A stretch of DNA of 64,000 nucleotides from Limnephilus marmoratus (lineage: Eukaryota; Arthropoda; Insecta; Trichoptera; Limnephilidae), in NCBI GenBank assembly GCA_917880885.1, contig OU862913.1, positions 24,561,286-24,625,285 on the forward strand, written 5' to 3'. The notes under the pieces are model-generated. The model was not told the DNA's origin. It searched no databases and saw only the letters and a list, made by a program, of their open reading frames with translations. A program made the translations under genes and the position numbers. Shown here piece after piece: positions 5,125 to 57,431 of this stretch (its first letter is position 1; every line of letters begins with the position of its first letter).

Positions 5125-8100
5125 CTACAGACACACAGACACACAACTCACAATGATTGATATTAAAATATGTAGAGATATTTTTTCTTTTTAAACTTTA
5201 TTGCGGAAAGCAAACAATTCTATTAATGATTGATGGATGATAAGTTTGCTACAAAATAAGAAAGGACTTACTGCTACACACCGGTGACTTGGACCACTTA
5301 TCGTCTTGTCCACAAACGGAATTCTTTTCCGAGATGACAAAGTGTTGATGGCAGGAGTAAGTCAGCACGGTGCCTGCGGGGACCCTCTCTCCGGGAATGA
5401 TGGCTTTTTTGCGCTCTGAGACGCTGTACTGCCCGTGGTGTGGGAGAACTGGCAGTGGACAGCCGGACCTAGATAGGTATCAACATAACCACCAATTATT
5501 AATTCACTCAATTATATATCATTCTTTCAAAGTTAAACTTTGTAAAATATAATTTTAATTTTGTTATGTTCAAAATGTTTTCCTTGAGACAGGCTGTTGA
5601 TGGTTAAATAAATCGGTTGATACGGCGCAAACGAAAGTTTAATGAATGAATGTGGTATATGCCTACAATCATTAAAAAAATACTTTTTTGTTGCTGTGTT
5701 TTATGCTAGTCTCACACAAGCGCTGTACTCTCATAATATATGATGGATTAGTCTGCTTCACCATGGTGAAATAAGCTAAGAAGAAAACTAGTATTAACTC
5801 ACTGTCAAACACATCCCAAATTTTGTCTGTTCTTACGTATATGTAATATAAATGGTCCAGTAAATAATTAATTATAATGCAGATAATACCAACTTCATTT
5901 GTCTGTAAACTCTTATTAAGATGCATATGTTTTACGTCAAAAATGAACTAAATGACTTCTCGAAAGTCAAGCTACACAATACACAAAGGCTGTGTACTGA
6001 CTACTGTCTACACCAGTGGTCTTCAACCTTTTTGAGCCGGCGTACCCCTTGTCTCTCACTACCAATTTGTTGTTCCCCGTACCCTTTATCTATCTTTTTT
6101 ACATGTGTAATGAAAGACGTGTATCATTTGTAATTTTTAATACTCTAATTATTACATGATTTTAACAATCAAGTCACACAAATACAATTAAGTACCTAAT
6201 ACAATTTTATTCAGAGTGTAACACGACTTAAGGCATTTTAACCAGTGATTTTACATGCTTGCCACATTATTGCGTACCCCTAATTTGGCTTCGCGTACCC
6301 CCAGGGGTACCACAGGTTGAAAACCACTGGTCTACACAATACGTAATAAAGTCGGATTGAGATTTCTGTATGATACATTAGATTATTAGGTACAACATGT
6401 TTCAACACTAATTTTAAAACTTACCTGGGAAATTCTTTGGGTGACAAACGGAGGACAGGCTCTGCAAAGAACAAATATCACAGGTTACTTATTACTACAA
6501 AAGTTAGTGGAAGAAAAAAAAACTAAAAATGGACAAAAACTAAATATTAGACATGACCATATATTGTAACACTCAAATGTCACAGCAACACCATACATTA
6601 TAGCATTCAAATGTCAAAACAACACTCAAATGCGTTTCGAGATACTTGACATTTTTGTTTATTTATTTTGAATTTTATTTCGAACATTTAAATGAGGTAT
6701 AAAAGAAAAATCTTTAGTCAAAAATTAGACCAAGGTCTTCAAATTGTTCAACTTTTTTAGATAGGTAAGTAAATGTTACTGATACTATGTATACATGGTG
6801 TCCCGGAAACTCGTAGTACAAGCGGGAAACTGGTAAATCTACATCACATTCGGAGTCGATTTGTGATATAAGTTTTTTGATTTGAGCTTTCGTTTTCGAG
6901 TAAATCGGATCCGAAGATGGAATTTTTTTGGTTAAATTTGAAAAAAAAATTCACTAGGAGGTTGATTTCAGCTGTGTAATATCTTATAAAATGCATCGAA
7001 GGGTAAACCGGGCTCAAAATTTTTTTTAACCCTTTAGTTGCCGAAAAAATTGAAAAATAGAAAAAAATATATATTAAAATCGAAATGCTCAGATCGACAA
7101 AAATAAGTTTTTTGGGTTCTCTACGTGATGTAGATTTACCAGTTTCCCGCTTGTACTACGAGTTTCCGGACACGTTGTATAGACATACATATAATGAGAT
7201 CTTTCAATCTAATCGAAAGTTATGATTCGACATTTATTCAATATTGAGGAGCAGTTCATTTCGAGTGCACCACTCTGTAGATACGTATAAAAGTTTTATT
7301 TTCTGTACGTAGTGGTTGATAAATTAGAAATAAATTTGTTGTATATTGTAAGATCACTAAGAATGTCTCTAAAACTCCATAAAAAACGGGAGTAATGTCT
7401 TGAATAAACAAAGAAAACAAAACAGGTCCCAGGTGTGACCCCTGTAGTATGCCTTTGAATATATCAAACCGATGTGAAAAGCATTGAGATTAGAATTTCA
7501 CATAGATTTTGAGGTATGTATTTGCGAAAACTTAAAGGTTTAATGAAAAATGACATCTCACCTTGGTAAACTTTACGCTGTAAAGAATTTGCGTGTATCT
7601 CCGAGAGAATCCAATCCTTCAGCGTGTAAATCTTGGTGAAGGCAGTGTAGGTGTCTTCTCTGCAATTGAAATCTGTATCACGCAGCATTGCCGATACGCT
7701 GACCACCCCGCGCAGGTACCACCGCTTCACCAAGTCTCCACTACGGAATACCAGGCCAGCGCCGCTGTCGCCGTTGCAGACGGCTGTGCCTACGATAACA
7801 AACCCACTTATTGTAAAAACATATATTTTCATTTTTTTAAAGACATATTATGTGAATCTGGATATTTTCCTAGTAAAATGGGTCGGAATTTTTTTTATAA
7901 AAACTTTTATCTTTTTTGACTTTTTTATGCGATATTTGGCAATTATTAACAAATCAAAAAAATTTTCCCGGAAAATTGGGAATTTTTGTTAATTAAACAT
8001 TAATGTTAATTAAACATTTTCTCATCCGGGATGCTGTTTGAAACTTCAACGGTTCTTTTTGAAAACAACAAAGGTTGTCCCTTCCGTTTACAACAATCAA

Positions 8101-17100: not shown

Positions 17101-20100
17101 CAAATACAAGATAATCAAACTGATTATCGTGAGATCGGAATTGTAAATTCTTAAGGAAGACCGATCTCACAACTTGTTTAGTTGGCTTCTGAATAGATAT
17201 GAACCATCCTGTAACTGAGAAGGTGAAGTGAACCAAAGATATGCCCAAATTTCAGGCGTGACGGTCGATAAAAAAAATATCAATATTTCAGCCTTACATT
17301 TTTTTAAATAAATGTATTTATATTTTAAGAATTCACAAAAAAAAAATTTTAAATATATATATTTCACGATGTTACACGCTGTTGAAGTAGAGAGGGAAAA
17401 AAAATGTGTCCATCTTGTCACTATTTCAACCCTTCTGGTCATCTGAAAAATAAAAAAAAGTTAGATTCTTTATCAGTACAAATGTCATTATGGCAGGAAC
17501 CAACAAAAATGAAAAAAAATCAATTTTCTCGCAAAATGGCGGCTACAAAAAAAAAAAAAGATTTTTTCAGCTATTTTTTGACTAATCAGAATTTTTTAAA
17601 GTGGTAAATTTTTTTTTTTTTTTTTTTGGTTCCTACCATAGAGGGATATATAAAGAAAATTCATGGCAAATTTCAATAAAATCGGTCAATTAGAACTTGA
17701 GATTTCGTGACACACGTTCCGAAAAAAGTAGTTTTGAGAAAAACGCGGTTAAGGGCCTTTAACCAGCCAGCGGCCGAGAATCAAATTTCGTCGAAAGATG
17801 TTCTTACGATTGTACAGGGCGGTTAATTATTCTCCGAACCAGCTTTTTAAAAATTACAACTCAATATCAATTTTATTTCATTCGAAAATTGCTTTAATTT
17901 ATACCTACATCCAAAAATGCTAAAAGACGTGATGATAAAACTAATAAAATTATGTACTTTTTGTAATTAATTTTTGATCATAAGTATTTATAATTTTTTA
18001 ATAATGTTTAAGCAAAATAATGTAAAAAAAAAATTCAAAATAATATATTAGTTTGTAAAACTGTAAATAAATAGACAAACTGAAGTATTTTCGTCACAAA
18101 GCACATGTGCGGATATTTTTTTAATGATTTCATTTAAATTAAAATTAAAATTCTGAAACATAGCTTTCCCAGATAATTATTGATTTATTTTACTGCATGA
18201 TTATATGATTTAAAATGTGTGTTTATTGTTTATTGTGTGAAAATTTAAGAAATCTGCCTTCGACCTATGGTATAACCTTATTATACTTAAAATAAACATT
18301 TTTTCTCAAAATTTAAAACATACCTTTAACAGATAAAAGAACAATCTTTCAAAATTAATTTATAATTTTTTAACAATTATTATAAGCAATAATTATCAGC
18401 CTGAAACACTCATCCACATTGAAAAATCTTCCGAGAAAAGATACATGACGCCAACGGGACTTGAACCCGTGTCCTCTCGATTGCCGGTCGATTGCTCTGA
18501 CCACTGAGCTATGGCGGCTTATCTCGTACCCGCCAAATGATTCAATATATGCTAGTGTTTCATTCAACAATTACTGCTTATTATATTTTTTCCACCTGAA
18601 AACAACCAACTTTATTTTTGCGAGAGAAACATTGTAAGTGTTAAATCCCTCGCTAGGTGGCGTCGAGACAAATTATGTCTTCATTTATTGGGGAAATACT
18701 TAAACTTGTCAAATATTAATTATTATTTTTAATTGTAAAACTAACGTTTTTAAGACAAGATTTTTTATGCATAGCACAAAGGGTAACAATTATTATAAGC
18801 AATAATTATCAGCCTGAAACACTCATCCACATTGAAAAATCTTCCGAGAAAAGATACATGACGCCAACGGGACTTGAACCCGTGTCCTCTCGATTGCCGG
18901 TCGATTGCTCTGACCACTGAGCTATGGCGGCTTATCTCGTACCCGCCAAATGATTCAATATATGCTAGTGTTTCATTCAACAATTACTGCTTATTATATT
19001 TTTTCCACCTGAAAACAACCAACTTTATTTTTGCGAGAGAAACATTGTAAGTGTTAAATCCCTCGCTAGGTGGCGTCGAGACAAATTATGTCTTCATTTA
19101 TTGGGGAAATACTTAAACTTGTCAAATATTAATTATTATTTTTAATTGTAAAACTAACGTTTTTAAGACAAGATTTTTTATGCATAGCACAAAGGGTAAC
19201 AATTATTATAAGCAATAATTATCAGCCTGAAACACTCATCCACATTGAAAAATCTTCCGAGAAAAGATACATGACGCCAACGGGACTTGAACCCGTGTCC
19301 TCTCGATTGCCGGGTCGATTGCTCTCGATTGCCGGTCGATTGGCGTCATGTATCTTTTCTCGGAAGATTTTTCAATGTGGATGAGTGTTTCAGGCTGATA
19401 ATTATTGCTTATAATAATTGTTACCCTTTGTGCTATGCATAAAAAATCTTGTCTTAAAAACGTTAGTTTTACAATTAAAAATAATAATTATAATTTTTTG
19501 TGGAAAAGAGTCAATACGTCTAAAACTTGATTTAAAAGTGACATATTTCCGGTTTTCTCTGGTTATTACCCACAGGAGTGGGTTTCCCAATGCTATGACA
19601 CTTGTGAATGCAGCTACTAATATCCTTTAGATGCTTCTTGCAACATGTTTCAGGAATTTTTGTTTTGAAAAGTTTTATTTTTCGATGTACATTTGTTACT
19701 TTTAATTATAAATTTTTTTGCTACTTGCTCATCAATGACACGGACGTGTCGAAACCGGTAGCAAAAAAATTTAAAATTAAAAGTAACAAATGTACATCGA
19801 AAAATAAAACTATTCAAAACAAAAATGTCTAGAAATTGTTACATAGTCAGTGCCCAAGAAATACAAAAAAATGTTTCAGGAATCCTCTTGGTCTCCCAAC
19901 CAAGCCTGTGCAGTAGGTCTCGGTTCAACTACAGGGATTCCCCATTCCCAGTGACATCTCGCACTGTGAATTGGCTCCCTTTTTCAGATATTTTGGCTTT
20001 TTTGTGTAGAACGAATTCATGAAAAATAATAATTTTGCTAAAAAAAAAATTATGATTTTAAAGATTATTTTATTCATTTTGATTTTTAACTTTATGAATA

Positions 20101-29100: not shown

Positions 29101-32100
29101 CTTGAAGAGACACATGTTGTAGGAGAGAGGAAACACAGAGGCCGGCAAATCGTTCCACAGCTGAAATGTCATGCCACAATGAAAAAGTGAAATGTCATCC
29201 ATGTACATGCATTGGGCGCGTATTTCCCGACTATGCACCTGTGCCGAGGGGATCGATGACGCTAGTTTCTCAGAGCGTCTTCCATTAGATATAATTTTGT
29301 TATGAGTTTAGCACAGTATAGGTTGTCCAGGGAGAGCAGAGCACGCTCTCATCTTAAATAATATTCCAGATAGAAATATTGCAAGTGTTTTTAATTTTCA
29401 GATATAACAAAAACACCGGAGGAATGTTCAACGCCCCAGATCGAGACGAAGACGCGGCGCATTATTCCCAAGAAAGGTGACTATGTTTACATCTCTATTT
29501 GCTATGATTACTTGCACTTCCCTACAAAGGGATAAATAATGCTCGGAGAGCTTTACTTTAACCCCTCGTTCTCCACCATAAAGAATGAGGGACCCTGTTG
29601 AAGATACTGTGTGGTGGGTGTTTTTGAGGAAGGAGTGAAGATGGGTCTTGAAGAGACCGAGCTGTTGATGACAAATGTCATCTGTGTTCATATTTATGCT
29701 GGGCGTGTTTCCTGACTATGCACCGTTGCCGAGGGGATCAATGACGCTAGTTTCTCGGAGCGTCTTCCATTGGATATAATTTTGATATGAATTTAGCGCC
29801 GTATAGGTTGTTCAGTGACGCTCTCGCTCCCCGCCATAAGCATCTCATGTAACAGAGGCTAAACACAACCTCTCCTTGGAAAACCTAAACACCTCAGCAG
29901 TAGATTGTCCTGGAGTGGCTTGAACCTGTTATTTACATTGATGACTAATCAGTTTATAATTTTGTGTTGTTTCAGACTTGATACCATCTAGTGGGCAGGT
30001 GGTTCGGGATGAGGTCCAAGTGCGTTGCCTTAGAAGCACTAACCTAACTAAGTACGATGAAGAAATCCACCTAGTAAGGTTGGAGACTGCCCGGGAGCAG
30101 AGGGAGACTGCCCGTCAGCAGAAGGAGGCTGCCCGGGAGCAGAGGGAGACTGCCCAGGAGATTGCCCGGGAGCAGAGGGAGAATGCCCGAGAGCAGAGGG
30201 AGACTGCCCAGGAGATTGCCCGGGAGCAGAGGGAGACTGCCCAGGAGATTGCCCGGGAGCAGAGGGAGAATGCTCGAGAGCAGAGGGAGACTGCCCAGGA
30301 GATTGCCCGGGAGCAGAGGGAGACTGCCCAGGAGATTGCCCGGGAGCAGTTGATAGGAGCCCGTCTGCAAAATGAACTGTTAGAATTAAAAATGAAAAAA
30401 GCAAAGGCAGAACTCGAAAGAGCGCTGGCGAATAATCTTGAATAAAAAAATATTAATCTCCAATAGATGTTTTATTTATTTTCCATTCTATTTTAATTTT
30501 TTTGATAATGAAGAGTTTCGCACTACCTTGATACACACATTATATATACATACATACGAGCGGTATATATTTAAGATCAACCCTTGTGCTTTTTCATAAT
30601 TCAATACACAGCATAATTAAAACATATTACAAAAATATGACTTCACTATTCATTAAATTAAATATGATGTCCTTTTATAGGTCATTACACAGCACAATTA
30701 CTATACATTACAAAAATATGACTTAACTATTAATTAAATTAGATATGGTGTCCTTTCACAGTTCATTACACAGCACAATTACTATACATTACAAAAATAT
30801 GATTTCACTATTCGTTACATTAGATATGGTGTCCTTTCACAGTTCATTACACAGCTACACATTACAAAAATATGACGTCACTATTCATTAGATACGGTGT
30901 CCTTTCACAGTTCATTATACATCACGTAAAATGTCTTTGGATAAACGCATCTCTTATTGTTCTGCCTGAAGCAGACTGCACCACTGAATTAACAGGTATA
31001 TTTATACCCTCAAACCGCCCAAAATGCTGGTCGTTTGAAGATATACATAAGTTATGCAAAATGGCACACGCAACTATGATGTTCGTAGTATTAGCCAATT
31101 TATTTTCTAATTTCCTCCTCAGACAAGGAAACCTCCTCTTCCACACACCAAATAATCTTTCCACTACATTCCGTGTGGAAATTTGCGCCTTATTATATTT
31201 TTCCTGTGCTTCGTTAGCAGGATTTAACACTGGAGTGAACATATAATTTGTCTGCCCATATCCGCTGTCCCCGAGAAGAATGCCTGTAATTCTTTTCTCC
31301 TCAAACTTTATGCGGCACGCGCTATTTTGGAATATCCTGGAATCGTGGGTAGAACCAGGCCACCTGGCAACGATGTCCAAAAATTCCAAACGTGGACCTG
31401 AAACAGCTTGCACATTCAAAGAGAACCATCCTTTCCTGTTGCGAAAAGATTCCCCTATTGTTCGGCTTGGGCTCTTGATGGCAATGTGGGTACAATCTAT
31501 GCACCCGACGACTCCTGGAAATTGCGCTCTTGAATAAAAGAGTTTCCGATTTTCAGCGTAGTCCTCGGGCCGTTGAGGAAAATGAATAAATTCCGTTAAC
31601 CGTTGTGCTAATCCGGAGGAAATCTTTTGCACCACTCTGCTGGAGGTTGGTTGGCTCAGCTTGTGAAGATCTCCGGCAACAATCTAGAATCATGTATATA
31701 TATATGTAGGTAGTTAATGGAAAATGGAAATAATTACAAGATGATCCAGATATTTTATACATCTAAGGGCATCTGGTTAATTTTAGGTTCACATCAAGAT
31801 TTCATTTATGAATTCTTTGTCGATTTCAAATCAGTATTGACATAATGTAAAGAACAGGTTTCATCATAGCTTTTCACATAGTGCAATATTTTAGTTTCAA
31901 AAAAGTAGAATAGAATTTTACAGTAGATATCTAGTAAAAAGATGCATTTACCTGATAATTACCAGTAGCGTAGAATCGCAGCGCGATAGCTACCTGAATA
32001 ACAGGAGGTATTGGCAAGCCTCTATTATTTACTATAGCATAATTTGGAAATAATAGAGGTACTAATATATGCATAACTGTTGTTTTCTCCAACCGATAAC

Positions 32101-47801: not shown

Positions 47802-48343
47802 CAGTGGCGTAGCGTAGTGGAGGCGGCCGAGGCAGCCATAAGAGGCGGCAATATTTCACAATAAAAAATAATAATATCCAGTAAAAATTTGAACCATCTC
47901 ATTTCATAATTTTGTCGCACCGACGATTCGGACCGATTGAAATGAGCACGGGATTTTTCATTACTTATTCTGTGAGGTAACCGGGGAATCTCCTTTCTCC
48001 AAATGAATGTTTAATAATGACGTCTTGCTTACTGTGGCGACTGCATTGCAGGAATTTACCTATTTTATTTTGCGGTTGAATTGGTTATGACTATATATGT
48101 GTAAGAATTTTTGTAATAAATGTAATTATTATATTGAAAACATATATATACATGACATTTTAAAATTTATTTTGTGACCTGTACAATACACAACAATGAA
48201 GATCACTCTTGTTGAAAAGTTCTTTAGAATTACTATATATTTTAGGCTATTAAATTGAAGTACATAAATAATTGGAGGGAGGTGGGGGGGGGGGGCAAAA
48301 TTTTCCTTCGCCCCGGGCGGTTGACACCCAAGCTACGCCACTG
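47802..48343. mobile_element. hAT MITE, 542 bp
   Basis: Ends CAGTGGCGTAGCG and AGCTACGCCACTG. Flanks GCTTAGAC (47794-47801) and GCTTATAC (48344-48351) match at 7 of 8. Same end type as 42241-42615. Confidence 0.88.
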
Positions 48344-48394
48344 GCTTATACGTACATAAAGAAGAACGAGGCACATACAACAACAAAAAAACGA

Positions 48395-48640
48395 GTGTGC
48401 TTTAGACATTTAGACCACACGACTGAAATAAAACTTCACTTATCTCCCTCTCAACTTCCGTTCGCCTCGCCCGACCATTCGCCTCGCCCGATCACACTTT
48501 TCATAACTATTCATTAGCTTACTCCCCAAGTCAAGCGTGCGTAAAGGCCCGACCGTTCGCCTCGCCCGATCACACTTTTCGTAACGCTCTCGTCACGCAT
48601 TCACCAGCTTACTCCTCTTTAAGAAGTTTTACTTCAAAAA
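48395..48640. repeat. R3 repeat copy
   Basis: Shares ACTGAAATAAAACTTC, TTACTCCCCAAGTCAAGCGT and GAAGTTTTAC with 2590-2918. Part of the interior is duplicated. Confidence 0.6.
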
Positions 48641-48814
48641 CAGTCCTAAGATATTTTTTTTCACGTAGTCAGCAAAATATCCTACGGTAAATGTATAAAC
48701 CTGTAGCTTTCTTTGCGACTATTAAAGTTTTTGAAATGTATGAAATGTGCATCTTACAGGTGAAATTGAAAATAGTTACCTATATATGTAGGTTTAAAAT
48801 AAATACCTTCAATT

Positions 48815-50465
48815 ATAGACTGGGATGCGAGATAGGTAAACCCTACGTCATCGAGTACACGGATGAAACTACTTTGTAGTGATAATGGACATTTAGAAAA
48901 CCTTAAAAAAGCTGGTCTGCCGGTGCGCCTTTTGGCAGGAGCCGCGCAGTCATGGAAATAGTGTGCGATTTTTTTCGAAAAAATTACGGCATCGAGTACA
49001 CGAACGGCAATGGTCTCAAATGATAAAGGTCGATTAAAAAATGAGAAAAAACAGGTCTGCCAACCGGCAGCCTGGCACGTTCGAAGGCAGCCGGCGACAA
49101 AGTGGGGTAAAAAATAGTAAATTTTACGTCATCGAGTACACGAATGAATAACTAACGAATAACGAATGAACAACTATAGTCCAGATCATTCCATTCCAGA
49201 ATTTCTTGGTCTGCCGACCAGCAGCCTGGCAGCTTTTTGTGTACGATTTTTTAATTATTATTATTATTTTTTTTTTTTTTCTTTTATCTTTAATATTATT
49301 TTTATTTCACTATATTTTTAAAAACTATGAATGCCATATTTTAAAAAAATAATTGAAAATTATTAAAAAAATAATTTGAGAGTTCCGAGTGTACCCATCC
49401 GTCAGGCGAGCCTTTCGACGCCAAACCACTTACGAAACCTGCCGCGGTGCCCCTCACCGCTGTCGCGTGTCGATATTTTTGTTCAAATTTATAATAATAA
49501 TAATCCTTTTAAGACTTCCTAATAGTCCATGGGAGTTGGAAGTTCGAACAATCAACCTACCGTCGCCGTAAGAGCTGCGTTCGTCCGAAAATTTCCGAAC
49601 CCCATCCGTTTCATATCGGTTTCGCTTGCCCTGCTGCATCGATTACATCGAATAGAAGATCGAAACTAATGAAAACCTGTAGTCTAGATCATTCCATTTA
49701 TGATTTCCTTGGTCTGCCGACCAGCAGCCTGCCAGTTTTTTGTGTACGATCTTTTAAAGTTTTATTTTTTTTTATTTAAAAAATGATATTTTTAATATCT
49801 TTATTATTTACGTTTTTCCGACGAACGCAGCTCTTATGGCAACGGTGCGGTGGTTGTTCGAACTTCCAACCACTACGGACTATCAGGTTATCTAAAAAAG
49901 ACTGTTATTACTATAGTCCAGTAACTTTGTCGCCTGAATGTATGGGGTAGTATGCGTTAAATCCGGTAGTTCTGATTTTTTGCAGACTTTTTTATGATGT
50001 TGGCCTAATGAATAATCCAAGTTTTCGACCGTGAGTGTCGACCGCAACTTTGTCAAAAATCGAAAAAACCGCGAAAAAAAACGTTATTTTTTGAAGTTTT
50101 GGCGATTATAACCCTAAAGGACTAGTTTTTTCAAAATAAATTTTATAACGTTTTTAAAGTTAACTAAATTTGCTACAATATGATACTAAAATTGTCTCTG
50201 TAGCCTCAATATTTTTTGAGATTAAGCCTTTCAAAGTTTGTGACCTCGAGCGCAAACCGCGAAAAAATCGTTTTTTTTTTCAAATTTTGACGATTATAAC
50301 CCTAAAGGACTAGTTTTTGAAAAAAGAATTGTAAGAAGTTTTTAAAGTAGACTAAGTTTTCTACAATATGATACTAGAATTGTCTCTGTAGACTTCATGG
50401 TTTCCGAGATTTAACCTATTAAAATTTACAATTTTTTTCGAACTTCGCAATTTTTTGCAATATTT
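48815..50465 (+). repeat. Left long terminal inverted repeat
   Basis: Contains three CATCGAGTACACG words, two copies of a GGTCTGCCGACCAGCAGCCT block (near 49208 and 49709), and at the inner end two about 170-bp tandem units with CGATTATAACCCTAAAGGAC. Confidence 0.8.
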
Positions 50466-51945
50466 TAGACGTCACTCGAATAACTCTCACGGGATAAATT
50501 TTCAATTACCTTCGACGTGTGAAGTCACGAATGTGACCCACTTGTAACACGTTTTTAACCCGAGGATGTGGTATGACTGACAGTGTACTCTCAATGTACT
50601 CGATGGACATTAGGCATGGTGTATCTACATAATATCTGCATGAAGTGAAAACATACTGTGAGGTTACTACTGCAACAACTGAACAACATGTTGACATGCA
50701 ACCATCTCGTGTCACCAGAGATGAATTAGATACTGAAAAACTCTGTAGATGGTTTGCACAGCACCCTCCATTCCTTACAGCAGATTTCATTATGTCCATC
50801 AGCAGTGGCCTGGTTGGAGAATCTAGTGTCAACTGCCACATGGCTCTAGAGATTGGGAGAGAATCGATGCTAAAGATGGTTGGCCAGAACTTCCAGGAAG
50901 TGAAATTCAAACGTAAAAACAATGTGGTGTCCCTTTCTTCAGCTGTACGAACTATTACTGTTGGCAATAAACAGGTAACTGTTGATCCTCTAACACTGTT
51001 TCACAGGATGTGTGTCTTAAAACAGTCGGATGAAGAATTGCGAGAGTTCTTCAAGAGTTACGAGTTACGAAGAGTTTCGAGAGTTACGAACTGTCACCAA
51101 TCTCAATGGCATTGTTCTCTGAAGAGGGGATGAGAAAGGGCACAAAATCCACCTTGTATTCAGTATTTGAACCTGTAACCTTAAACGAGAAGCAAGGGTT
51201 AACGAAGTTTGTAATAGTGGATGGAGGGCATCTACTTCACAAAGTTGTGTGGCCTCGAAGCTCATCATTTGGTGCGATAGCTGACAGATACATACAGTAC
51301 ATTACTGCCCACTATGGCTCAAATGTGGCAGTAGTTTTCGATGGTTATCCCATAGATGCTGTGCAGAAAAACACAAAGAGCTCTGAGCGTCTTCGAAGAG
51401 CCAAGTTACACTCATCGCGAGAGATAATCGTTGATGAGAAAACCGTCGCACAGGTTCCGCAACAGAAATTCTTGTCAAATGACAAAAACAAGATTCGTTT
51501 CATAAAACTGCTGACAACAAAATGGGAAATCATAACATTCAAGTACTCCAAGCAGAGGAAGATGCTGATAGGCTAATCATCACTACAGCTGTAACTGCTG
51601 CCTCTACCTATGGTATAGTGGTAGTCGTTGGTGAGGACATTGACTTGCTGATCATCCTCACTGCGATCTCCAACCAACGTGAAATTTTTTACAATAAATG
51701 TGGAAGAGGCAAAGCATCAGATGTCATGTATTCCAGCATCGCTTCTTCAAAATCCTTTTTAAAAACAGAGCTTTTCCTCTTCATCCATGCCTTTAGTGGT
51801 TGTGACTCGACATCCTGCTTCTTTGGCTTAGGGAAGATACCAATGATGTCCATAGTCGAAAAAAATCCGGACGTTAAAAAGCAAGCTGCGATTTTTCTCG
51901 ACACCAACTCTACACCTGACGATATAGCAGCAGCAGGAGAATTTT

Positions 51946-53200
51946 ATTTTTTTATTTTTTTTTATTTTTATTTATTTATTTTATACATTTTACAAATATA
52001 AGACAAAAAGTCCCGATAAACTACTTTTTAGCAGTTTGTCTAACGGGTTCTTTACAATAAAGATCTTATTATAGAGATTTAAATAGTTACATTTTTACAG
52101 TTAAAGATATAAAATAAAATTAAATTTTTTACAGAAGATATAAATACTTAGATAAAAAAAAAAAAATTATGAAAACATGAATAACAATTTTAAAGTCTTT
52201 AGAATAAGTAATATGTTATTGTAAGCTAATACAAATGAATTCTTTCCATAAGCCAAGTCTTCAGTAAGTTCACCAATTGTTTGTTTTGGGTACAGTTTTT
52301 AATTTCAGCTGGAAGCATATTTAAACAACTGGGAATCATGTAATTTAACGTTCTTTGTCCATATTTATTTGTATGTTTAGGTACAATTAGTCCTTCATTA
52401 AAGTTAAAACGAGTATTATGGTTGTGTTCCAGCCTGTTTATATATAAAGGGTTATTTATGTGCTGAAATATAATTTTGTACCACATAATTGCTCTCACTG
52501 AAAGAATTTTGAGACTTTGATAAAAGTATGGAATATTATGCCTTTCTTTGTATAAATTTTTTTCAGCTAATAATTTAACCAATGAATTTTGCACTGATTG
52601 AACATGGTCTATATTTGTTTTACAAGAAAATCCCCAAGCTGTTATTCCATACCTTATAACAGATTCAGCTAGAGATAAATAAATTATTCGAAGTGTGCAG
52701 AGAGGAACAAAAAATTTTAGTTTATACAATCTGTTTACAATTGATCTTAATCGTGCACAAACTTTGTTTATTTGTATATCCCACTTGAAAAAGCAATCAA
52801 TAATAACACCTAAATAAACATACTCTTTAACTAGTTCCATATTTTCACATGTACACGATGCTGGAATACCATTGTGTAAGCAATCTGATGTATGTGTCTT
52901 TATTTCAGGTGTAATACATACCTTAACATTAGGGGATCTTATGTGTAACAATTTAGTTTTTTTGGCATTTATAATTAAGCCAGAGTCGTGAGACCATTTT
53001 AAGAGTTCAATGTAGTCTTTTTGTAAAAGATCTCTACAAGTTTGCAAATCACTGCTAGAAATAACTAAAGCAGTATCATCCGCGTATACAAAGTACTTTA
53101 CATGTCTAAAAATGAATTTAATAAAAGATACATATATAATATACAGGATTGGACCTAATATGGAACCTTGAGGAACGCCGGTTAGAGTAGAGGTTAGAGT
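51946..53200 (-). mobile_element. 5'-truncated Jockey-like LINE inserted in the nuclease gene
   Basis: The minus-strand frame is open from about 53190 to 52226: LTGVPQGSILGPILYIIYV, KYFVYADDTALVISS (YADD catalytic box), INAKKTKLLHIRSP, EYVYLGVIIDCFFKWD, SVIRYGITAWGFSCKTN and the C-terminal LNMLPAEIKNC ending LMERIHLY*. The 3' tail is A-rich (51946-52010 on the minus strand). The endonuclease and first half of the RT are missing. The frame has no stop, so the insertion is fairly young. Confidence 0.88.
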
Positions 53201-53245
53201 TAGAGGTTACCTCCGTATAGAGTTATAATCACTCTATACGGAGGT
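53200..53245. repeat. 18-bp hairpin at the LINE 5' junction
   Basis: GGTTACCTCCGTATAGAG and its exact inverse CTCTATACGGAGGTAACC are separated by TTATAAT(C)A. The right arm is the nuclease coding sequence (LYGGN), so the left arm is an inverted copy of target DNA. Confidence 0.85.
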
Positions 53246-53869
53246 AACCCCAACACCCATAACCTTGACGAGCTGAGGTACCAACTATTCGCCAGGGCTG
53301 CGACGAAAACCAGCTTCAATCTAGCCAGGTTACCTCCTACACGAGACTCTGCTCGATTTCACTCCTTGCGGACATACCATCAGGTAAAAATTTGTCCTTG
53401 CATCAGTAACATATCATTCATCCTTTTCTATTCTCATGTACAATCTTCTTACAGGTTCAGGCGTGGTTGGGAGTCACACTGAACCCTCTCTCCTGGGGGT
53501 GGATATCCACGCCACAAGGCCTCAACCCCAAAATGATGACCAAAGATGCAGCCCCACAACACCTCTTGCGGATGATTTCTTGTGGCTGCACGAAGGGTTG
53601 TGGGAAAGCGTGCAGCTGCAGGAAGGCAGGATTAAAATGCTCATCAGTCTGCAGGCACTGCAGCGGGGCCTCTTGTGATAATATACCTGATGTTGAAGTA
53701 ATAGATATCCCAGAAGGCGACGATCTGTCCGACGTCGAAATGAAGGATGACTTGTGGGCACAAGACTGTACTTCATTATTCGTAGCTTAGCTTAAACATC
53801 ATCATACCATCATAAAAGTACAGGGCTTTGATAGTATAATCAGGGTCAAAATTCATTCAAAACGACAGA

Positions 53870-55451
53870 ATTGCAAAAAATTGCGAAGTTCGAAAAGAAT
53901 GATAAACTTTGAAAGGCTTAATCTCGGAAACTATTGGGTCTACAGAGACAATTTTAGTATCATATTGTAGCAAATTTAGTCAACTTTAGAAACGTTTAAA
54001 AAAAAGTTTTAAAAAACTAGTCCTTTATGCTTATAATCGCCGAAATTTGAAAAAAAAAACGTTTTTTTCGCGGTTTGCGCTCGAGGTCACAAACTTTGAA
54101 AGGCTTAATCTCGGAAACTATTGGGTCTACAGAGACAATTTTAGTATTATATTATAGCAAATTTAATTTGCTTTAAAAAGGTCTTAAATTTTTTTTTCAA
54201 AAACTAGTCCTTTACGGTTATAATCGCCAAAATTTGAAAAAATAACGATTTTTTCGCGGTTTTTTCGATTTTTGACAAAGTTGCGGTTGGCACTCGAGGT
54301 CGAAAACTTGGATTATTCATTAGGCCAACATCATAAACAAGTCTGCAAAACATCAGAACTACCGGATTTAACGCATACTGTGATGTATAAAGTTACTGGA
54401 CTAATAAATTTGTATAATAATATGCGCACGCGATGGCGGCGAAGGGCTCCGCGGCCAGTTTCCAGTAAGTTGTTTCGCGTCGAAAGGATCTCCCATCCGA
54501 TGGGTACAATCGAAACACTCAAAAATTTTTTTTTATGATTACAAATTATTTTTTAAATTCTGGCATTCTAAGTATTTAAAACCATATTGAAATAAAAGTA
54601 ATAATAAGATATTGAAAATATTTTTAAAATATTTAAAAAAAAATTTAACTTTAAAAGATCGTACTCAAAAAAACTGCCGGCCTGCTGGTCGGCAAACCCA
54701 AGAAGTCATAAAAGGGATGATCTAGAGTATCTAGACTACAGGTTTTCGTTAGTTTCGATCTTGTATTCGATGTAATCGATGCAGCAGGGCAAGCGAAACC
54801 GATATGAAACGGACGGGGTTCGGAAATATCCGTCGTTTTTCGGACGAACGCAGCTCTTACGGTGACGGTGGGTTGGTTTTTCGAACTTCCAACTATTAGC
54901 GACTATTAGGCAATCTTAAAAGGACTATTATTATTATAAATTTGTACTAAAATATAGACACGCGACAGCGGTGGGCAGGTTTCGTAAGTGGTTTGGCGTT
55001 GAAAGGCTCGCCTGACGGATGGGTACACTCGGAACTCCCAAATTATTTAAAAAAATATTTTTTGTTATTTTTTAAAATATGGCATACCAAGAAGTTATTC
55101 GTTGGTTTCATTCGTGTACTCGATGACGTAAAATTTACTATTTTTTACCCCCACTTTGACGCCGCGCGCCGGCTGCCTGCGAACGTGCCAGGCTGCCGGT
55201 TGGCAGACCTGTTTTTTCTCATTTTCTAATCGACCTTACTTTATCATATGAGACCATTCCCGTTCGTGTACTCGATGACGTAATTTTTTCGAAAAAAATC
55301 GCTCACTATTTCCATGACTGCGCGGCTCCTGCCAAGAGGCGCACCGGCAGACCAGCTTTTTTAAGGTTTTCTAAATGTCCATTATCACTACAAAGTAGTT
55401 TCATCCGTGTACTCGATGTCGTAGGGTTTACCTATCTCGACTCCCAGTCTA
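53870..55451 (-). repeat. Right long terminal inverted repeat
   Basis: Mirror of 48815-50465, including AATCGATGCAGCAGGGCAAG and CGAACGCAGCTCTTACGGTG and the terminal CATCCGTGTACTCGATGTCG. The tandem CTAGTCCTTTA units lie at its inner end. Confidence 0.8.
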
Positions 55452-55453
55452 CA

Positions 55454-55651
55454 ACGTGGGTTGAAAGTTTCAAAATTATAGTCACGGCTAATAGTGTTGT
55501 AAGGGTCTACGGAGACGTCACGGTGCGATGTGTGAGAGAGATGCAAGAAAATTATGACTTTTCCTTTAGAGGAAACAGACCTACATACATTGTGTATCTC
55601 ATCGTTTGAAAGATCTGCAGCATTATAGACTTCGCCTTTCAGCCCATACAA
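55454..55651 (-). pseudogene. Unrecognised coding-like fragment beside the long-TIR element
   Basis: Minus strand: LKGEVYNAADLSNDEIHNVC, then VIIFLHLSHTSHRDVSVDPY. It reads like protein and runs on into the TIR. No family recognised. Confidence 0.25.
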
Positions 55652-55747
55652 AAAGGATACCCGGGAAAAAACACTTTTCTACCCCGAAAATTGCACGAAA
55701 TGAATATTTTTTTAATATTACCTTCCAGAAGGTAAAAGCTATGTTGG

Positions 55748-56093
55748 CAGTACCGGATTATCCCTAAGGCAGAGTAGGCAACTGCCTAGGGGCCCCGCGT
55801 CGGTTAGGGGCCCCGCATCCCGAGAAAAAATGACTTGCTTCAATTAGTATTTATACTCGAAATATACTTGAATCGAGCATGAGGGCCGGTCGCTTGAAAC
55901 GCCGTTCCTTCGTTAGTTTTGCTCCGATTTACTTGAAATTTTGACACAATACTCAATATAGTTACTGACATGTTTTACATTCAGAAAAAAAGTTTTTAAA
56001 CTTTACCCCCCCCCCCCCCCCGCCCTTAGAGCCTTGTAAGGGGCCCCGAGACGTGCATTGCCTAGGGGCCCCGACATGGTTAATCCGGCCCTG
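55748..56093. mobile_element. hAT MITE, 346 bp
   Basis: Ends CAGTACCGGATTATCC and GGTTAATCCGGCCCTG. A perfect 8-bp duplication TATGTTGG lies at 55740-55747 and 56094-56101. Same family as the array at 40140-40830. Confidence 0.92.
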
Positions 56094-56648
56094 TATGTTG
56101 GTATGTTTTTAAATTTTCGATGTGTTTTGTATTAACGTAAGTATTCATTGTCAAACATGTGTAATTTATCGGAAAATATTATTTATGGAAAAAGTGCTGC
56201 TAACTCAATTCTCATAGAGAATTACAAAATTATAAAAACATACCGACATAGCTTCTTCTTTCGAAAACATGTTTTTGTTTTAAAATTAAATTTTTGTGAA
56301 AGTTTCGCTGTAGAAAAGTGTTTTCTCCCTAAACCCTTTTTCGAGCAATTCCCGTAGGTAAATTAGAATTTTTACGGCAGTTGTCTTAGTTAACTTACAA
56401 GTTGTTTTACGATTGAGCTTGTTTAGAGCAGAAAGTCAAGACTGGAGACTACTGGAAAGCGAGTTTGGACGCCGGCAAACAATGCTCTTAAGGAACGTAT
56501 GTTTATTGCCCTTTGTATGCCGTCGCGGCACCGTTACCGTGAATCGTCACAGTAATTATAAAAGCGTCTAATCGATCCATATCATAAAGTTGTTGCCTGT
56601 CTTCCATTCTTGCTGGGTTCTGTCGAACAGATCGTTGTCTAATGCTGG

Positions 56649-57431
56649 GGTTAGACCGTTAGACTCATAACATAATCAAAATTTACGGATTACATAAGAT
56701 TTTGACAGGTCGCTCACAGGAGCGTTTACACATGCATCCGACTTGTGTTATTTGACTTATTGTGGTAATTAATGCTCACGGTAGTTGTTCGGAAGTTCGA
56801 CCTGTGTAAATGCTCATGCGACCGTTTACATCTGTAAATTTATTTGCGGTAAGATGGCTTCCTGCCAACAACGACCTGCTACTGTCAAATTTACTCGATT
56901 TTATCAATAAAGATGAAAAGGTCCCAATAAAGTGTTGAAATAGATTTTGGCTTTAATTAAACAATTTTCCACGCGCTTTTATGCCGTCAAAGGCGGCAAT
57001 TAATTTCGTTTTATCCGAATGACAGCTACCTGACATCTGCTAACAGCAACCGACTTCGAATTCAAAATTTTGAAAAACGTAAATGTTAAAAACAAAAACA
57101 TTAAGTTTGGAAAGGATTGGACCGATAATTGAAAAGAAGGATGCTCATTTTCCAGAAAACTTAAATAAGTGTAAATAAATACTAGTTTTGTAGAAAAAAA
57201 ATCCTATGAGAACAATTGTCTTTTAATTTTTGACATTTCGCAACTGTAAGAAGGCTGAAAATTCGCGCGGGCGTGATTAGACCTGTCAAAAAACTTCTGA
57301 AAGAATAAGTTCTGTAACTTGCTATAAATTACGTTAAGTGACTTTTGGTGTCATTTACATTGGTAATTTGGCCAAAAATCGCTTACAAGAGCGATTTACA
57401 GGAAAAAACTTACGAGTCTAAACCCAACCTT
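56649..57431. mobile_element. TIR element, about 780 bp, no gene
   Basis: Ends GGTTAGACCGTTAGACTCAT and the inverse of GGTTGGGTTTAGACTCGTAA; inner GCTCACAGGAGCGTTTACA is mirrored as GCTTACAAGAGCGATTTACA. The target duplication was not resolved. Confidence 0.5.

Follow-up and report, generated by a model that had tools for sequence, protein, structure and literature searches.

A stretch of 64,000 nucleotides from Limnephilus marmoratus (Trichoptera), called the window here (C8:24561286-24625285), contains an insertion with long inverted arms, a gene for a FEN/XPG-like nuclease and a CxC (tesmin-like) cysteine cluster (Table 1). The original prediction described it as a single mobile element with terminal inverted repeats (TIRs) of 1.6 kb and without a DDE core. 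The insertion is very probably a nested pair, in which an internal-deletion derivative of a transposon encoding a DDE domain together with a nuclease of the FEN/XPG family and a C-terminal CxC cluster (AcademX-type) lies inside a member of an outer, non-coding family. Mobility, the XPG/FEN-type acidic pattern and the cysteine cluster were borne out, whereas the single element and the missing DDE core were not, as the family has a predicted DDE/RNase H-fold domain that the window copy lost by deletion.

Two Nested Transposon Families

The apparent 1.6-kb TIR is made up of the arms of two nested transposon families. The outer pair (48816-49913 and 54404-55451) is followed inwards by a second pair (49914 to about 50527 and about 53870 to 54403). 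Inverted repeats pair window positions 48816 and 55451, which are the outer tips, and the inner element has inverted ends of its own (TAGTCCAGTAACTTT...AAAGTTACTGGACTA) that bound 49914-54403. The region is also present in an inverted segmental duplication 1.2 Mb away, in which 48006-57247 and further pieces up to 62561 correspond to locus L017 (C8:25801522-25810814) with about 97% identity. L017 carries the whole nested pair with the same flanks and is therefore not an independent insertion.

The genome searched comprised 1.63 Gb in 67 contigs. With the inner arm, 40 matches were obtained, including the window and its duplicate (best 40 of 420 candidates scored). The inner boundary was exact in all 20 loci read, of which the window (L029) and the duplicate (L030) sit inside outer sequence; in the other 18 of 18 loci, outer sequence was missing from 1496 bp of flank. 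Furthermore, paralogous empty sites were found, as the flanks joined without the insert aligned to 13 of 20 outer loci (best 14 rows). These empty sites and the exact boundaries without outer flank show that the inner element is a transposon in its own right, which inserted into the outer one. Five inner copies were read for target site duplications (TSDs), and the four with both ends in the stretch all showed one of 3 bp (TAA, TAT, TAA, CTA). The inner copy in the window is flanked by CTA and ATA, with one mismatch.

The search with the outer end gave 40 near-whole-length matches including the window (best 40 of 2205 candidates scored). Twenty loci bearing the outer tip were fetched and each compared with the window element. 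The window and 14 of these 20 loci had both tips, and only one tip was present in the remaining six (L020, L021, L025-L028), whose other end lay outside the fetched stretch. All but one matched the window element only at about 1-1100 and 5589-6636 (12 longest matches per locus); the exception, L017, shares more with it, being the same insertion in the duplicate. A perfect 3-bp TSD was found in 12 of the 14 loci with both ends, or 12 of 13 once L017 was excluded (TAA five times, TTA three times, and TAT, ATT, TAG and CGA), and was absent from L018 and L017. For comparison, when the left flank of one locus was paired with the right flank of another, the 3 bp agreed in 26 of 156 cases (13 loci). 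The long arms of the window insertion are 92.8% identical over the outermost 360 columns of their alignment, and 83.5% over the next 502. No coding sequence was recognised in the part common to the outer copies. The outer family is non-coding, has long, repeat-rich inverted arms and inserts with a 3-bp TSD.

A search for the TAGACTGGGAGGCGA tip of the outer family (up to four mismatches) in 1.3 kb upstream of the full-length inner-type families L055 and L056 gave no match and hence no autonomous partner. A 725-amino-acid (aa) open reading frame in outer copy L012 (HzTransib, E 2.6e-122) was rejected as the enzyme of the family and belongs to a separate nested Transib (L012:4432-7686), which is bounded by CAC.../...GTG and flanked by a 5-bp duplication, CGACG.

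Table 1. Anatomy of the nested insertion, in window coordinates
Feature	Position	Strand	Remarks
Outer element	48816..55451	.	Non-coding, foldback-like family, tips TAGACTGGGA; hosts the nested insertion
Outer left arm	48816..49913	+	Part common with 19/20 other loci (all but L017)
Outer right arm	54404..55451	-	From locus comparison and arm alignment
Inner element	49914..54403	+	Tips TAGTCCAGTAAC; nested, internal-deletion derivative of a DDE+XPG/FEN+CxC transposon (AcademX-type)
Inner left TIR/subterminal region	49914..50527	+	Two sub-repeats of ~187 bp: 50066-50239, 50254-50427
Deletion junction	50528..50554	+	Reading frame continues from here at codon ~865 of the full-length protein
Broken exon	50555..51941	+	Linker and most of the FEN/XPG-like nuclease; tblastn P0099 residues 865-1315, 81-90% identity
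5'-truncated LINE in nuclease exon	about 51942..53218	-	RVT_1 E 2e-14
Remaining nuclease exon, up to presumed intron	53219..53389	+	tblastn P0103 residues 1307-1363
Last exon, CxC (tesmin-like) cysteine cluster	53428..53790	+	tblastn P0103 residues 1353-1477, reaching 53766
Inner right TIR	53870..54403	-	Two sub-repeats: 53904-54067, 54091-54254; inner edge approximate

The Inner Gene and Its Full-Length Relatives

The inner gene in the window represents the C-terminal 40% or so of a protein of about 1400-1500 aa. The relative P0099 is 81-90% identical to the window gene and mostly 87-91% identical to the copy in L017, in both cases only from residue 865 of 1405. A very similar junction sequence was found in L036 and L041, and was not located in L031 and L044 with the search string used. 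The exon beyond the junction contains the acidic motifs VDGG, VFDGY, EDAD, GEDID and SGCD. Frameshifts near 51.05 and 51.5 kb disrupt the gene, as does a long interspersed nuclear element (LINE), an insertion absent from the duplicate L017. An 18-bp inverted repeat (about 53205-53249), partly made up of target-gene sequence, borders the LINE at its 5' end and may be a by-product of LINE integration. When window pieces were compared with Pfam, the LINE alone passed the curated cut-off, and a PDB sequence search with one piece gave no match.

A search of the same genome with P0099 (best 33 of 9863 candidates scored, 36 rows) identified at least nine places that keep some or all of the N-terminal half, with 42-51% identity; internal stops were absent from six of these. 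A further 23 rows start at or after residue 803. A relic of the same subfamily (C27:639035-641856) covers residues 234-1183 in four pieces with 80-92% identity to P0099. On its 5' side (L054), the exact inner tip is followed by the P0099 N-terminus (residues 4-40, 89%), and the arm is 89.6% identical to the inner left arm of the window over 615 columns, with homology ending at about window position 50527. Since this relic combines the same TIR with the N-terminus, the absence of the DDE part from the window copy is attributed to an internal deletion, which makes this copy, by sequence, a non-autonomous offshoot of a DDE+XPG transposon. The 3' end of the relic is not in view; next to its 3' part, L057 (C27:637000-638100) resembles, by eye, gag, protease and reverse transcriptase of a long terminal repeat element.

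In 20 inner copies, window and duplicate included (about 2.1 kb each), nothing was found before residue 865, and in four (L038, L039, L045, L048) the protein match begins at residue 1027. These copies were chosen by likeness to the window's TIR, so that the sample is biased towards its subfamily.

With the read-through query, 92 relatives were recovered from the best 7993 candidates, and with residues 1-500 of P0018, 572 (120 listed). Among those listed, many are 1400-1500 aa long, and they come from spiders, ants, wasps, beetles, moths, butterflies, aphids, thrips and other insects, and outside the arthropods from a soft coral (Dendronephthya) and one rust fungus record. Names, where given, are mostly 'hypothetical', 'uncharacterized' or 'Tesmin/TSO1-like CXC domain-containing'; spider members carry the latter label or, in one record, Exonuclease 1, probably from automatic annotation. 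Conserved blocks of the N-terminal half are FDNADxN..T.DG..TFH.MGG, VTFDQPLYxKA, RLGGFHLLMSF and AERxGxW, those of the nuclease VDGG, VFDGY, DADxLI, GEDxDLL and SGCDTTS, followed by a C-rich tail.

One relative with 81-91% identity carries, ahead of the FEN/XPG nuclease, an N-terminal DDE domain of RNase H fold, predicted by a P-element-like model. With Foldseek, no fold was significant for this N-terminal model; with a second structural aligner it was RNase H-like, the first nine rows being P element, Hermes and Transib. A helical insertion is predicted before the last acidic residue of the fold. The predicted DDE domain lies in the part that the window copy lacks, an outcome that had been named in the original prediction as one that would refute it. 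Profile A1 matched Exo1 alone among PDB sequences (E 0.024 and weaker). PF20231 (DUF6589, of unknown function) matched 7 of 30 members of alignment A2 (best E 4.2e-8) and appears to be related to part of the protein of this family; in P0018 the match covers residues 242-428. NCBIfam matched neither of two proteins. In the literature searched, no paper was found on DUF6589 and, in the portion available, none on a DDE+XPG+CxC protein.

Both inner arms contain the tandem sub-repeats of about 187 bp that had been predicted at the inner ends of the TIRs, and one of the two arrays was also reported by Tandem Repeats Finder (TRF). Diverged full-length families of this genome lie at C5:59111266-59115348, C1:4556801-4560871 and C3:163368-167438. 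Upstream of the C5 family, whose protein is only 51% identical, 32 bp of the sub-repeats recur with 90.6% identity, and no comparable match was found in L056, upstream of the 42% identical C1 family. The recurring piece supports the suggestion that the sub-repeats are candidate binding sites, without proving it.

Decay of the Nuclease Remnant

Single-base changes were counted in 17 copies over 457 usable codons, after exclusion of 3 of 20 sequences (L017 as the duplicate; L037 and L043 with little gene in the stretch), and compared with a neutral expectation computed from the same base changes. Private changes comprised 166 nonsynonymous, 73 synonymous and 11 stops, a ratio of 0.91 to the expectation, and shared changes 83 nonsynonymous, 35 synonymous and 3 stops, a ratio of 0.95. 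Selection on the nuclease-only gene was thus undetectable in the 17 copies, weak selection remaining possible, and the remnant is decaying near-neutrally.

Proposed Mechanism and Alternative Explanations

The inner element jumped into the middle of an outer element. Its full-length protein consists of an N-terminal Cys/His-rich region, a predicted DDE domain of the P-element/hAT kind, the FEN/XPG nuclease and the C-terminal CxC cluster. In the proposed mechanism, this protein would be supplied in trans by full-length copies. It would bind the tips and the subterminal repeats, with the CxC cluster presumably contacting DNA. Cutting and joining of the ends, at a stagger of 3 bp, would be the task of the DDE domain, and the nuclease would presumably process flaps or gaps at excised or integrated ends. 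The window copy, having lost the DDE part, retains the ends and a nuclease remnant and is in decay.

A single autonomous element with 1.6-kb TIRs, moved by the FEN-like nuclease alone, is suggested by the two contiguous arm pairs that flank the gene in the window and by the lack of the DDE part in all 20 inner copies sampled by TIR similarity. Such an element is nevertheless extremely improbable in view of the empty sites, the independent inner copies, the DDE-bearing relic with the same tip and the lack of detectable selection on the nuclease-only gene. Even less credit is given to the idea that the long arms arose by inverted duplication on the spot instead of being transposon ends; the whole insertion does lie within the inverted segmental duplication, but dispersed copies on many contigs share the same tips and 3-bp TSDs, which makes this practically negligible.

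It was also considered that the nuclease/CxC-only derivatives are functional partners, providing active nuclease to full-length DDE copies, and some of them do retain long open frames, with six places free of internal stops. The near-neutral ratios of both shared and private changes and the further deletions in the copies starting at residue 1027 speak against this, and a partnership of this kind is judged quite improbable. More weight, although still little, is given to the same nesting with a DDE+FEN+CxC transposon that forms a superfamily apart from Academ, to which many 'Tesmin/TSO1-like CXC domain-containing' proteins would then belong as transposases, the TSD length being shared with Academ by chance. 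The lack of an informative family name (PF20231 in 7 of 30 and NCBIfam in none of 2) is in line with this, but Academ itself is known to bear an XPG nuclease. Moreover, AcademX is published as nuclease-bearing with TSDs of 3-4 bp in the available part of PMC10045372, and a separate superfamily therefore appears unlikely. A nested pair with an AcademX-type derivative inside remains the favoured explanation.

Relation to Known Transposons

The nuclease of Academ transposons is of the XPG type, and AcademH was reportedly defined by Kojima in 2020. Academ is counted among the DDD/E superfamilies (PMC9587614, in the part available), and the accessible text of PMC10045372 gives a TSD of 3 or 4 bp for AcademX and ties its difference from AcademH to the nuclease and the helicase. 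The full-length family shares with AcademX, as far as described there, the DDE class, a transposon-encoded nuclease and this TSD length: the nuclease is present in the encoded protein, four inner copies have 3-bp TSDs, and a DDD/E domain is predicted in the full-length element by the model, though Foldseek alone was not significant. The window copy differs by being a deletion derivative without the DDE part, and the CxC cluster is absent from the available portions of the descriptions compared, which allow likeness by description, not by sequence. It is by its features rather than by sequence that the full-length element fits AcademX, a lineage of Academ, in agreement with Academ having been named originally as the nearest known kind.

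P elements and hAT transposons such as Hermes produce 8-bp TSDs and are not known to carry a FEN/XPG nuclease. The inner family has the same predicted RNase H fold with a helical insertion before the last acidic residue, but differs in its fused nuclease and its TSD, which is 3 bp.

The outer family resembles Foldback (FB-like) elements in its long inverted arms with sub-repeats, its dispersed copies with TSDs and the lack of recognised coding sequence in the common part; its TSD is 3 bp, and it is likened to FB, Galileo and Tetris by anatomy, not by sequence. A 3-bp TWA-like TSD is typical of PIF/Harbinger, and 8 of the 12 outer TSDs are TAA or TTA, but no Harbinger transposase was found linked to the outer ends. 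An open reading frame piece on the minus strand (30922-31683; DDE_Tnp_4, E 3.5e-33), which we take to be a PIF/Harbinger-type transposase, lies 17 kb from them.

Elsewhere in the window, 18371-18670 and 18784-19083 are identical 300-bp direct repeats, each with a minus-strand tRNA match, adjoined by 157-bp inverted arms.

Significance

The system is ordinary in kind, consisting of nested transposons of which the inner one is a non-autonomous AcademX-type derivative, and the puzzling 'nuclease-only' transposon is explained as the decayed derivative of a DDE+XPG element. Several proteins named tesmin-like, and one spider record named Exonuclease 1, are transposon proteins, which helps annotation. 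For a transposon lineage in which a DDE transposase is fused to a flap-type nuclease, the predicted P-element-like DDE fold provides a structural link that can be tested.

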